From: Flavobacteriales bacterium
GTDB lineage: Bacteria; Bacteroidota; Bacteroidia; CAIKAF01
Length of the DNA stretch: 64,000 bases
Direction: 5' to 3'
NCBI GenBank assembly: GCA_025451235.1
Contig: JANWKT010000008.1
Location: 372,001-436,000 of the forward strand
The position numbers and the translations under genes are program-made. The notes below the pieces were generated by a model. The model was given only the letters and a program-made list of their open reading frames with translations. It had not been told where the DNA came from and did no database searches. How positions within the stretch are numbered: the stretch's first letter is position 1; each line of letters starts with the position of its first letter. Shown here one piece after another: positions 25,915 through 31,458 of the stretch.

Positions 25915-26283
25915 TAAAGAAGTTAGACCGCTGCACTTTTAGACATCAGACTTTATCTAACATCTAAGGTCTAACATCTCAAGTCTTTCTTTGGGTGTCA
26001 TCATCTGGCTACTTGCTCCTATCTGGGCCGCTAGATCTTGACGAAAGGCTCTTCTCAGCCGTTCCAACGAATGTGGAAATCAGAGCGGTGTTACGATCAG
26101 AGGGAGTGACGGAGAGGGAATAAATTGAAAGATCAGCCCATTCCAACATTCCTGTCAACCTGTTCATAAATGATTTTTTGATTTTTCAACCGGTTTTGAA
26201 CAAAACTAATTTGATCAACCTCTTGAAATGATAAGAATTAGCGTAAATTTAGGTACTGCAATCGGTAGTTAGCTAACACCTAA
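25915..26283. other. gene-free gap before the cassette cluster
   Basis: 369 bp with no credible gene. The first 75 bases form a loose inverted repeat of TTAGACATCTAAC words (GTTAGAC at 25922, GTCTAAC at 25969). A more GC-balanced stretch follows (26000-26150) with no recognisable feature. The last part is AT-rich and ends in the core site at 26268, where the cassette-like region begins. Confidence 0.5.
26268..26274 (+). other. left cassette boundary, GTTAGCT core site
   Basis: GTTAGCT lies 16 bases before the ATG of the first cassette gene. The nine bases after its G (TTAGCTAAC) are complementary to the start of the site found after that gene at 27005-27014, as expected when both ends derive from one circular cassette. 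Upstream I see no inverted partner, so this may be attI-like, a decayed attC or a secondary insertion site. Confidence 0.45.
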
Positions 26284-26988
26284 ATGTCAACAAGAAAAAA
26301 ACTGACAAAAAAAGAAGTTCAAGCAATTATTGACTTGGAAGGCAAACTTCATGAGGAGTATTCGAACTTTTTTACGAGGACTTATCCTTCGGGACTTGTT
26401 GAAGAAAATCTCATTTATGAATTGCCTGGTGACAGATTTCTTTTCGTGCTGGCTCCTAATGAAAAATTTGGAGGAAAAGGATTTGTATATGCCAAAGACG
26501 AATTATTGAGGTCAATAAACTGGAACAAGCGACTACAAAAAGATAATGAACTTGGCATAAATGGATCTGTACCTCACTGGCGCCATTATTCGAAGCACAA
26601 AGCAACCCTTATTGACAAGATTGATGACCTTATTTTAGACTTATCAATCGACTTAAAGATAGACCCTAAGATTCTTGATAAAAGTTATGAGAGTTTAGAC
26701 ATATTATCCGACATGACTGAAAAGTATAATGTGGACAAGGCCGTTGAAAACATATATGACAATCTTGTTGCTTATATCGGAGAGGTGCTTAGACTTCGTG
26801 TAAAAGGGAACTGGCAAATTAACGAAAAGTTTTACGGTGGAGACTATCCCTACATTGACATAGGAAATGAACGAATTCAACTTATGCCTATCAATATTGT
26901 TTGGGAATGCCTTAGCGGACTGAACCCTGTGAATTTTAGAAAAGAAGTAGGAAACGAAGTTAGGCGTGGAAAAATTAAAATGATGTGA
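26284..26988 (+). CDS. Hypothetical protein, integron-type cassette gene 1
   Basis: 234 aa, no family recognised. The N-terminal third has KEVQAIIDLEGKLHEEY and ELPGDRFLFVLAPN. The C-terminal third contains NLVAYIGEVLRLRVKGNW followed by YPYIDIGNERIQLMPIN, a pattern seen in uncharacterised bacterial proteins but to which I can assign no function. No signal peptide, soluble. It fills a cassette-sized unit (26269-27171) with only 15 bases of leader and no visible promoter. Its stop is 19 bases before the attC-like site. Confidence 0.7.
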   Translation: MSTRKKLTKKEVQAIIDLEGKLHEEYSNFFTRTYPSGLVEENLIYELPGDRFLFVLAPNEKFGGKGFVYAKDELLRSINWNKRLQKDNELGINGSVPHWRHYSKHKATLIDKIDDLILDLSIDLKIDPKILDKSYESLDILSDMTEKYNVDKAVENIYDNLVAYIGEVLRLRVKGNWQINEKFYGGDYPYIDIGNERIQLMPINIVWECLSGLNPVNFRKEVGNEVRRGKIKMM

Positions 26989-27007
26989 TGAATTTTGAAG
27001 AGGCGTT

Positions 27008-27177
27008 AGCTAACTCCAATTTTATAAAATTGCCTACAACCATTATATATCAAAGCTTTCAGCACTTCACCCGCTTGGGCGTATTAAAATAATTTACGCC
27101 TTGCTGGTCTTTTTAGATATGATTAAAGTTTTGTACCTTTAATACCGGCAACTTTATAAAATTTGGTTTCGTTAGCT
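27008..27177 (+). other. attC-like recombination site 1 (170 bp)
   Basis: Begins AGCTAAC (matching RYYYAAC except at one base) and ends GTTAGCT (near GTTRRRY). The segments next to the ends are inverted partners: AATTTTATAAAATTGCC (27018-27034) and GGCAACTTTATAAAATT (27147-27163), separated from the cores by short unpaired spacers. Inside, GGCGTA and TACGCC form a second stem. About 110 bases of the interior (from GCACTT at 27062) closely match the second site at 27893-28005. This is the layout of an integron attC, longer than most known ones. Confidence 0.72.
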
Positions 27178-27191
27178 GCAAGCTGAAAAAA

Positions 27192-27848
27192 ATGATTGAC
27201 TACAACAAAATATTTGAAATCTCAGATTGGCTTTCTAATAGACCATTTAGAGGTGAAATTGCAAAGTATGCCTTGGCTGAGCCTGAAATTTCACGAGGAG
27301 AAAAAGATGTAAAGGGAATTGTTACTATAAAGCATGCAATGGGTGGAAAAACCCTGTATGATATTATATGGACTACCAATGCATACCCGTTGGTCGTAAG
27401 CGAAAGAATAATAGACTTGTTTAAGTCAAACGGAATTACTGGTTGGAAAACTTATAAGGTTCAAATCCGCTCAAAAAAGAACGAGTTGATCGACCAAAAA
27501 TATTTTGGACTGATTATAACAGGGCGTTGTGGATATAGAGATTATTCTAAAAGCTCAATAGTTTTGGACAAAATTGGTATATATATTGAACCTCATATCA
27601 AAGGTTTTTACTTTGACAAAGATTATTGGGATGGTTCTGACTTATTTATGAGTAACCCAGATCAAAACGGCGATACGACAATGTATCGTTTTTGTACTCA
27701 AAAAGTTGTAGATCTATTCGAAAAAGAAAAAATAAAGAACATTCTTTTTGAGAATCTAAATGATTCTACATTGGCAATTGAATTGTATGACGTACCACTG
27801 ACTGCTAAACAAAAATCTGAAATGAAGATATTAAAAGCCAGCAGCTAA
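27192..27848 (+). CDS. Cassette gene 2: possible Imm11/Imm43-like immunity protein
   Basis: 218 aa soluble protein. YPLVVSERIIDLFKSNGITG followed by TYKVQIRSKK resembles the DUF1629/Imm11-type immunity pattern (a central domain found beside polymorphic toxins), but the match is by eye and weak. No toxin gene is adjacent. It starts 15 bases after the GTTAGCTGC core of site 1 and its TAA stop codon overlaps the start of site 2 (GCAGCTAAC). The first eight bases of its unit, TTAGCTGC, are exactly complementary to GCAGCTAA at its far end, the sign of a once-circular cassette. Confidence 0.65.
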   Translation: MIDYNKIFEISDWLSNRPFRGEIAKYALAEPEISRGEKDVKGIVTIKHAMGGKTLYDIIWTTNAYPLVVSERIIDLFKSNGITGWKTYKVQIRSKKNELIDQKYFGLIITGRCGYRDYSKSSIVLDKIGIYIEPHIKGFYFDKDYWDGSDLFMSNPDQNGDTTMYRFCTQKVVDLFEKEKIKNILFENLNDSTLAIELYDVPLTAKQKSEMKILKASS

Positions 27849-28012
27849 CTTACAACTTACAAAATCTCCTAGATCCCTCTAAAATCAATACTTCTGCACT
27901 TAACCCGCTTGGGCCTTTTTAAATAATTTAAGCCCTGCTAGTCTTTTTAGATTTGATTAAAGTTTTGTACATTTAAAGTCCGGCCACTTTGTAAAATTTG
28001 AGGTCGTTAGGT
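27843..28012 (+). other. attC-like recombination site 2 (170 bp)
   Basis: Starts AGCTAAC and ends GTTAGGT, which matches GTTRRRY exactly. It is the same length as site 1 and shares long identical stretches with it (for example CCCGCTTGGGC, TAGTCTTTTTAGAT with one change, TGATTAAAGTTTTGTAC). Its inner hairpin differs in sequence from that of site 1 but stays paired (GGGC-TT with AAGCCC versus GGCGTA with TACGCC), suggesting that folding is conserved. Confidence 0.72.
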
Positions 28013-28025
28013 GTAACTATAATTC

Positions 28026-28634
28026 ATGAATCGAATCTTCTACGTAATAATAATTCTTCTGGCCGCATGCGGAAAGTCGGCTGAAAAATCAGTCGATTCA
28101 CCAGTACTGAATGATAAAGAGAAAATGGTAGACCCGGGTCAAAAAAAGGAAGTTAAACAAGAATCCCAAATTAACAAGGATGAGTTTGACATTAAGCTAC
28201 TCATCGAAGCTGATGGTGATAAATATTATGATCCTGAGTCCGAGTTTTATTATAACGTCGGTTATGACAATGAGGTGTATTTTGTTCCTGGTGACAAGCC
28301 TGTTGTAAAGATTCCGGGCTGGGACCTATTGATATCTGAAAACGCTGTTGAATTCAAAAAAGCAAAGACCCCTAACAAAGCTCCGTTGAATTACAAAATG
28401 GATGAAAAGCTTGATACGTTTCATGTCAAAGTTATTGATACAGGAATGGCTTGTGATGATACCCGCGAAAATAAGGTGATCATTGAGAATGCCAAACAGT
28501 ATAGCGTTATTGAAAAGTTAGCTAAGGTGGCAATATTTAAGAATTGTATCGGTAATAAACAGGAATTATATATTGTTTCTTATCATCAATGCCTACTGCC
28601 AGATCTTAAAATTCACCGAATTCGATGTAAATAG
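28026..28634 (+). CDS. Cassette gene 3: hypothetical lipoprotein
   Basis: 202 aa. MNRIFYVIIILLAAC is a lipoprotein signal with lipobox LAAC, followed by a Lys/Glu/Ser-rich linker and a domain of unknown family (FYYNVGYDNEVYFVPGDKP, KVIDTGMACDDTRENKVII, LYIVSYHQCLLPDLKIHRIRC). Four cysteines in the mature part could form disulfides. It starts 14 bases after the core of site 2. The expected matching end, something like CACCTAAC, is not found downstream, so its right boundary may be lost. Confidence 0.65.
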   Translation: MNRIFYVIIILLAACGKSAEKSVDSPVLNDKEKMVDPGQKKEVKQESQINKDEFDIKLLIEADGDKYYDPESEFYYNVGYDNEVYFVPGDKPVVKIPGWDLLISENAVEFKKAKTPNKAPLNYKMDEKLDTFHVKVIDTGMACDDTRENKVIIENAKQYSVIEKLAKVAIFKNCIGNKQELYIVSYHQCLLPDLKIHRIRCK

Positions 28635-28856
28635 AATGGATCCATTAGACAGTTTTTTGTAAAAAATATGGAACAGGACATAATTATCAGCTCAAACTGG
28701 CGAAATATGGTGGCGTCTAACATATTCTGCAAATATCCCCATTCTGCCAGGATTTTTTAAAATTTTGAAACCAATCAACCGCCTCACCGTATGAATGGAA
28801 AGTTTCTATATTTATAACTAACCCTATTTACAAATCCTGTTCCATTGATCTATAAA

Positions 28857-29324
28857 ATGCTCTTTGCACTTGCGGTACTCTTTGGAGTATACCAGCTGTT
28901 TCAAACGAAGGACATTTTTTCGCTTGTCATTCTGGGTGCACAAGTAATTGCACTTGTGCTCACCTTTATTACTGTGAAGCAAATCAAATTTGCAGGAGGA
29001 CTGGTTTTTGGATTGACACTGGTGATGAGTATCATTTACGGCTTCGTAAAAAATGACATCAGAATATCAAAACGAGTGCTGATCCTTTTTTCGGCAGGTT
29101 GGGTCCTGTTCATATACCTGGTTCCTGTATTTCATCGGAACGATTTAAGGATCCTGGGGCTGGCCATGATCATTCCGATTGGAGCATATATTGTGCTGCT
29201 GGCAAAAGATCTTAAAAGCTATAGAAATGAACTGGGATTCCTAACGATTATTTTAATTGCTGGACTTTCACAATTCATAGAAAGTTTAGAAATTTTCGAT
29301 ATCATTAGGTTACCATTTACCTAA
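28857..29324 (+). CDS. Hypothetical multi-pass membrane protein
   Basis: 155 aa, almost entirely hydrophobic with about six possible helices (FALAVLFGVYQLF, SLVILGAQVIALVLTF, GLVFGLTLVMSIIYGFV, VLILFSAGWVLFIYLV, LAMIIPIGAYIVLLA, ILIAGLSQFI). No family recognised. It has no resemblance to GldL, although the next gene is a GldM paralogue. The ATG at 28857 is preferred over an upstream TTG. First of four + genes with gaps of 18-27 bp. The 222-bp gap before it contains TTAGAC (28645) and GTCTAAC (28715), possible remnants of cassette ends, and nothing else recognised. Confidence 0.6.
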   Translation: MLFALAVLFGVYQLFQTKDIFSLVILGAQVIALVLTFITVKQIKFAGGLVFGLTLVMSIIYGFVKNDIRISKRVLILFSAGWVLFIYLVPVFHRNDLRILGLAMIIPIGAYIVLLAKDLKSYRNELGFLTIILIAGLSQFIESLEIFDIIRLPFT

Positions 29325-30879: not shown

Positions 30880-31458
30880 ATGAGCACCAACATAGAAAAA
30901 ATAAAACAATTAGGAAGGGACCATATGATCCAGATGGGGATCCGCATTATTCAGGAACATATCGATGCTAAAATTGACATAAACGCATTTGATCGGATCA
31001 TGGTAAAGGCCAATACCACCCGTATCATGGTTGAATTTTCCAACCCCGTAAAATTTATACCCTTCAATTCGTCTCATTTTTACGATGTAGAGGTGGATAT
31101 CATAGGTGGAGGAATTTCCTATAGCATATTTTCTAATCCTTCCGACCTTGAATCGGGATCTTTGACTGATCCTTTTTATTTCATGACCAAGGAAGCAGAA
31201 CAACATATCCAATTCGTGATAGATGCCCTGAATGGAGAAAATGTGCAGGAGGATAGAAAAACCTTTGGGCAATACATGGATGGATATCTTATCATTCGTG
31301 ATAAGGAAGGACATTACCAAATTGAAAGGACTTCGGATTACCAGGAATCATGGTATAAAATAGATAAAATGTCGGGCGAAATTTACGATGCCGGGCATTG
31401 TCATTTAGAACCCTATCCGGATGATGAAGAGGATAAATATGTTGAAATAAAAGAATAG
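30880..31458 (+). CDS. Hypothetical soluble protein
   Basis: 192 aa, no signal or membrane helix, no family recognised. Features: MVKANTTRIMVEFSNPVKFIPF, GGGISYSIFSNPSDL, and an acidic C-terminal end (EPYPDDEEDKYVEIKE). Last of the four-gene + row. It ends 4 bp from the convergent lipoprotein gene, with no terminator visible between them. Confidence 0.55.
   Translation: MSTNIEKIKQLGRDHMIQMGIRIIQEHIDAKIDINAFDRIMVKANTTRIMVEFSNPVKFIPFNSSHFYDVEVDIIGGGISYSIFSNPSDLESGSLTDPFYFMTKEAEQHIQFVIDALNGENVQEDRKTFGQYMDGYLIIRDKEGHYQIERTSDYQESWYKIDKMSGEIYDAGHCHLEPYPDDEEDKYVEIKE

Follow-up and report, generated by a model that had tools for sequence, protein, structure and literature searches.

Integron-type gene cassettes behind homologous attI-like leaders at many loci of a Flavobacteriales genome without a detectable integrase

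We describe a Flavobacteriales genome with many short, dispersed arrays of gene cassettes, to which we assign attC-type sites with confidence. New here are the homologous attI-like leaders, which occur at many loci of a lineage where no integrase was detected. These are very probably genuine integron-type gene cassettes, organised as CALINs, and the likeliest recombinase is an IntI that acted in trans or has been lost. Since no integrase was found, we infer the way in which the cassettes were moved from the DNA alone. The array described below lies in a window of 64,000 nucleotides, part of an assembly of 4.28 Mb in 46 contigs (98% complete), where a preliminary description had read two repeated sites as belonging to a CALIN. 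That reading is supported by our analysis, which adds three elements missed earlier: an eroded third attC, an attI-like leader, and the membership of this array among at least eight in the genome.

All elements of the window array are on the plus strand. Ahead of the first cassette lies an attI-like leader of subfamily B (about 26158..26272), homologous to the leader at C8:2367 with an alignment z of about 16 against shuffles that preserve single-base composition alone. Its conserved core, AGGTACTGCAATCGGTAGTTAG (26251-26272), is common to seven other leaders of the source genome and one of the sister species, and contains the putative leader cut, G26268^T26269. Cassette 1 (26269..27171) extends from TTAGCTAAC to the G of R' in its attC and encodes a protein of 234 aa (26284..26988) without match in Pfam or PADLOC. 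Its attC-like site (27008..27177, from R'' GCTAAC to R' GTTAGCT) includes an internal hairpin that is conserved and covarying (27073..27104) and a second conserved box, TTAAAGTTTTGTACCTTTAA (27123..27142), made of invariant alignment columns. Cassette 2 (27172..28006) encodes a protein of 218 aa (27192..27848) with a weak match to Imm11 immunity proteins (20.6 bits, under the cut-off of 22.1), and its attC-like site (27843..28012) runs from R'' GCAGCTAAC to R' GTTAGGTG, with an internal hairpin at 27907..27938. The arms of this second site resemble two different subfamilies of the genome, so that it looks like a hybrid. The two sites were correctly placed in the preliminary description, as were the CTAAC (27010-27014 and 27845-27849) and GTTAG (27171-27175 and 28006-28010) boxes and the stop codon of gene 2 within its own site (TAA at 27846-27848, inside R''). 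The nearly identical interior also holds, with 85 nt at 88% identity or 175 nt at 78%.

The third cassette (28007..28854, right boundary approximate) encodes a protein of 202 aa (28026..28634) that is a probable lipoprotein from its N-terminal sequence and has no match in Pfam or PADLOC; none of the three window genes could be given a confident family. This cassette had been said to lack a recognisable end. Instead, it appears to end in an eroded attC (28715..28854), composed of an R''-like GTCTAAC, the first half of the hairpin, and then AAAGTTTCTATATTTATAA, with R' and the second hairpin half lost. The match to our model (28732-28854, adjoined by the GTCTAAC at 28715-28721) is marginal by score, at 20.5 bits, with E 0.21 over the whole window and 0.0013 over 28600-29000 (401 bp), and it owes its credibility to its position. 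Two kilobases downstream of the array, a gene for a 192-aa protein (30880-31458) has a 72% identical relative in the tail of an array of the sister species (L148:3078-3662), with no other synteny between that locus and the window; this gene could have belonged to an old cassette with an attC now eroded.

The sites of the window belong to a family found across the genome. Used as a query, the DNA of site 1 found 18 places in the source genome. We then used R1, a covariance model of 21 copies built from the genome's own sites as a substitute for the published IntegronFinder attC model, which at E<=0.01 matched 25 copies in the source genome, beside many unrelated genes, six in a genome of the same genus, and five in one of another genus of the family. 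These counts include the training copies, which match by construction; this applies to the window's site 1 (154 bits) and site 2 (133 bits). Under the strict filters in use, these three were the only R1-positive genomes among 395 sampled from the class, and copies outside the source genome were found in two of the 15 sampled family members: Flavobacteriales bacterium CRAIB_MAG97 (G015, same genus) and Candidatus Competibacteraceae bacterium BA4 (G003, same family). The title of the latter's contig JACSSC010000005.1 (L043) names Competibacteraceae, yet the genome groups in the family of the window genome, and the title looks wrong. Comparison of the window with Rfam gave no match, plasmid and phage collections gave no DNA match, and viral contigs gave none for the hairpin pattern.

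A number of arguments favour the cassette nature of these units. First, the start of each cassette is complementary to its own trailing site, as the preliminary description had noted for cassette 1 (start GTTAGCTAACACCT against GTTAGCTAACGCCT; 13 of 14 bases pair with its own R'') and cassette 2 (GTTAGCTGCAAGCT against GTTAGCTGCTGGCT; 12 of 14). Among the 20 cassettes whose start is known independently, via the preceding R' or leader, the four variable bases following GTTAG agree with the R'' of the same cassette at 73 of 80 positions; re-paired partners give a mean of 34.8 (sd 4.3) and a maximum of 55, and none of 200,000 shuffles reached 73. Positions 12 and 13 each match in 20 of 22 cassettes (about 7 expected for swapped partners) and position 14 in 14 of 22 (6 expected), in a set where two starts were located partly through the end match itself. 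At position 11, where the reverse complement of R'' has G, the start nearly always has A; this gives a T.G wobble on the bottom strand and, on the top one, an A.C mismatch. The resulting pattern is one of 9 paired nt, an interruption of 2 nt, and about 3 more pairs. Since self-pairing of 9-11 nt in attC has already been described (PMC2727003), we regard this complementarity as the known hallmark, somewhat extended. R''/R' boxes of the form CTAAC...GTTAG are present in nearly all sites. The junctions of both cassettes and leaders lie at G^TTAG, which points to exchange at G^TT.

Second, the sites fold as attC sites do, the L''/L' inverted repeats forming a hairpin in which the bottom strand is favoured. 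The bottom strand of site 1 forms a cruciform (z -3.8; none of 200 shuffles equally stable); the integrated form of site 2 folds poorly (z 0.4) and improves once the start of its own cassette completes the stem. In the circle form, the bottom strand has the greater stability in 16 of 17 sites (DNA parameters; Wilcoxon p 5e-4), and in the L arms, under symmetric scoring, G.T wobbles number 28 for the bottom strand and 4 for the top one; the sites being mutually related, the strand-bias p-values are optimistic and the wobble counts less independent, and the direction is uniform. Compared with the integrated form, the circle form has the higher stability in 15 of 17 sites (p 7e-4). The extrahelical base that is canonical in the L'' of attC is seen in part of the sites: a single-base excess is present in some (C13c, G015, G003b), and absent in others.

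Third, the central hairpin covaries. The compensated internal stem reported earlier has modest support from the two window copies, as site 2 requires a mismatch or bulge, and becomes firm over 21 copies, with five of nine pairs changed on both sides, 94.7% of cells pairing, and no equal on any measure among 500 shuffles. RNAalifold on the full MAFFT alignment recovered the central hairpin alone because the arms differ among subfamilies, and the arms were compared pairwise instead. The second box, TTAAAGTT...TTTA, is conserved in sequence. A promoter reading of this box is not supported, since TAnnTTTA, the form found in attC, is not enriched upstream of ordinary genes (14 against 11.7 expected); the host-type motif TAnnTTTG occurs there 18 times against 6 expected. 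Sites are about 165-172 nt long, or as much as about 220 nt where a hairpin is inserted, and thus exceed the 57-142 nt given for attC (PMC2727003), which is a reported range and not a mechanistic requirement. The inserted hairpin (26-28 nt, like AGCGTAGCGGACCTAGGTGGCCTAGCG) sits at one position of the L' arm in L029:4905-5082, L059:222-425, L036:1673-1851, L144:3766-3915, and L148:8482-8630. L059 has it twice in tandem, and L036 carries a matching insert in the L'' arm, so that its stem is lengthened.

At least eight arrays of the source genome are headed by homologous leaders: in the window, at C8:76368, C8:2367, C7:373619, C26:4257, and C13:136527, and on C5 and C12, at or near contig ends. 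One leader was found in the sister genome. Over about 100 bp they form three subfamilies (C5, C12, and G015; the window and C8:2367; C8:76368, C26, C7, and C13). From their position and homology, these leaders appear to occupy the place of attI. Behind them, cassettes lie in tandem, head to tail, with genes mostly in the same orientation; several cassettes contain between two and five genes, with lengths of up to 4 kb. The array on C14 has seven attC sites, and in the window two intact sites and an eroded one are clustered as in CALINs. At one locus, the contents of arrays can be compared between species: L042, a sister contig that carries a leader and cassettes, shares synteny with C26 over several genes, two of which, adjacent to the array, have 74-75% protein identity. 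Past this point, the leader subfamily and all the cassettes differ, and in the source genome about 580 bp with another reading frame separate the flank from the leader. The contents of this locus have therefore turned over, which means replacement or independent insertion once the species had separated. An empty-site comparison via the neighbouring SDR gene was uninformative, because synteny downstream is not conserved among relatives, and the contig from the same genus stops inside the gene. A DUF1801-like gene lies downstream of an attC in both the source (L060:5794-6213) and the sister (L149:1560-1982), with wider flanks that cannot be aligned.

The cargo outside the window includes an AbiV domain, an FRG/PDC-S15 protein, ArsR regulators, DUF6428, and a protein of the LMWPc family, which from its context we read as an arsenate reductase. 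A cassette at L144 (source genome G000, C13:126000-138000; 10528-8056, minus strand), about 2.5 kb long and with a leader ahead and an attC behind, seems to contain a complete type III-A retron made of a phosphoribosyltransferase, an HTH protein, and a reverse transcriptase. The reverse transcriptase and the phosphoribosyltransferase score 441 and 292 bits with the PADLOC type III-A retron models; a comparison of this cassette with Rfam gave no ncRNA match.

The absence of IntI from the window, noted in the preliminary description, extends to the entire genome. No protein of the source genome, of G015 or G003, or of the 16 family genomes (the entire sampled order) passes the cut-off of the curated integron-integrase family TIGR02249. 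The search is able to detect IntI, since it found a full-length one (422 bits) in one of the 395 genomes of the class (L151:3592-4530, on contig C40 of G155). The hits in the source genome lack most of profile positions 182-244, which we take to be the IntI-specific insertion region. No intI adjoins a leader, as it would in a complete integron. The XerD (348 bits, over its cut-off) and XerC (310 bits, just below) of the source genome look ordinary, with no inserted IntI patch, and G003, rated 100% complete, has just two tyrosine recombinases, both of ordinary Xer size. The other candidates are not IntI either: a 352-aa relative, an adjacent pair and a third gene on C40, and one protein on C14. 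The 352-aa relative, present in both genomes of the genus (L038:1973-3031 on C1; L046:1246-2304 in the sister), appears to lack the usual HxxR and catalytic tyrosine and is probably inactive. The two overlapping recombinase genes at L040 (C40:16000-21000) and the third one nearby (C40:22589-23107) are possibly a separate mobile element.

The mechanism that best fits these observations is that of integrons. Genes, each trailed by an attC of about 170 nt, would be recombined as a folded bottom strand: the free circular cassette would fold its attC, its own first bases completing the R''/R' stem, and a tyrosine recombinase would join it at G^TT into the leader, in the role of attI. Further cassettes could be inserted at the leader or at an attC site already in place. 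The recombinase would come from outside the assembled genome, as an IntI supplied in trans by an unassembled or extrachromosomal element or as one since lost. A functional IntI can mobilise CALINs in trans, as stated in PMC9668308 and PMC12444791. Since the assembled genome does not encode this recombinase, the arrays are CALINs, with an unusual spread over many homologous attI-like platforms.

This explanation could take several forms. In one, which we hold tentatively as a possibility, intI is present in the organism and missing from the assemblies because of broken contigs or an unbinned plasmid or phage. Arrays do run off contig ends at C5, C8, C12, C13, C14, C26, and C34, and draft assemblies are known to inflate CALIN counts (PMC9024848). 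Against this, the eight assembled leaders all have upstream sequence, none with intI beside it in a search of the whole assembly; the leaderless pieces at the ends of C13, C14, and C34 could be joined to the open downstream ends of C5, C8, C12, and C26; and intI is absent from three separate genomes. In another form, which seems rather doubtful, the arrays are fossils on which an integrase acted long ago and where nothing moves now. This would account for the failure to find an integrase and for the eroded sites, such as that at 28732-28854 in the window and several other matches of 20-45 bits, but most cassette ends are still complementary to their own partner over 9-14 bases, and a syntenic locus has entirely different contents in two species of one genus.

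A different view is that cassettes move among the many homologous attI-like platforms without IntI, by the action of another tyrosine recombinase, possibly the host XerC/XerD pair, on the folded attC-like sites and leaders. The repeated, homologous leaders resemble a dedicated target, IntI is absent in all three attC-bearing genomes, and G003, rated complete, has Xer-sized tyrosine recombinases alone. However, these Xer proteins look ordinary and are devoid of the IntI patch, a lost or unsampled IntI accounts for the same facts, and we know of no Xer protein that recombines folded single strands of this kind. We thus consider it unlikely. Finally, it is highly improbable that the sites are a MITE or other interspersed repeat lying between genes by chance, as their dispersal over many loci with similar sequence might suggest, because ends that vary and, wherever this could be assessed, nearly always fit their own partner, beside many unrelated genes, are inexplicable by a fixed-end repeat, and the leaders, the head-to-tail tandems of mostly co-oriented genes, and the structural covariation also argue against it.

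Integron-type cassettes behind homologous leaders, our preferred reading, can be compared with known systems. CALINs as defined by IntegronFinder (PMC9024848) consist, like these, of cassettes with two or more attC-like sites and without a neighbouring intI; they are common and possibly mobilised in trans. Here, in contrast, at least eight arrays per genome start from homologous attI-like leaders, IntI is missing from the assembly and the sampled family, and an internal hairpin of the attC is conserved and covaries. Sedentary chromosomal integrons, e.g., that of Vibrio with its VCR, share uniform attC sites within a genome and cassettes of mostly unknown function, but form one large array beside intI (PMC8618304) whereas these arrays are many, short, and dispersed. 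The CALINs of Xanthomonas also occupy several chromosomal loci, which are conserved, in addition to or without intI; there, intI is kept downstream of ilvD in many genomes, and the available portions of that study (PMC12444791) mention no shared leader. Insertions at attG sites likewise place cassettes at chromosomal positions away from intI, but attG sites are divergent and broadly distributed, according to PMC12444791 and PMC12901181 on Loot et al. 2024, whereas the leaders here are homologous over about 100 bp within subfamilies. Integrons have rarely been reported in Bacteroidota; PMC9024848 records for this phylum In0 elements and a single complete integron in Salinibacter.

In a lineage where arrays are numerous, attI-like landing sites recur, and no integrase is detected, it becomes possible to test the origin and persistence of CALINs, and also whether folded attC sites can be used by a non-IntI recombinase. 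The idea that defence systems are moved by cassettes gains support from the phage-defence genes found in these arrays, among which a type III-A retron appears to be complete.
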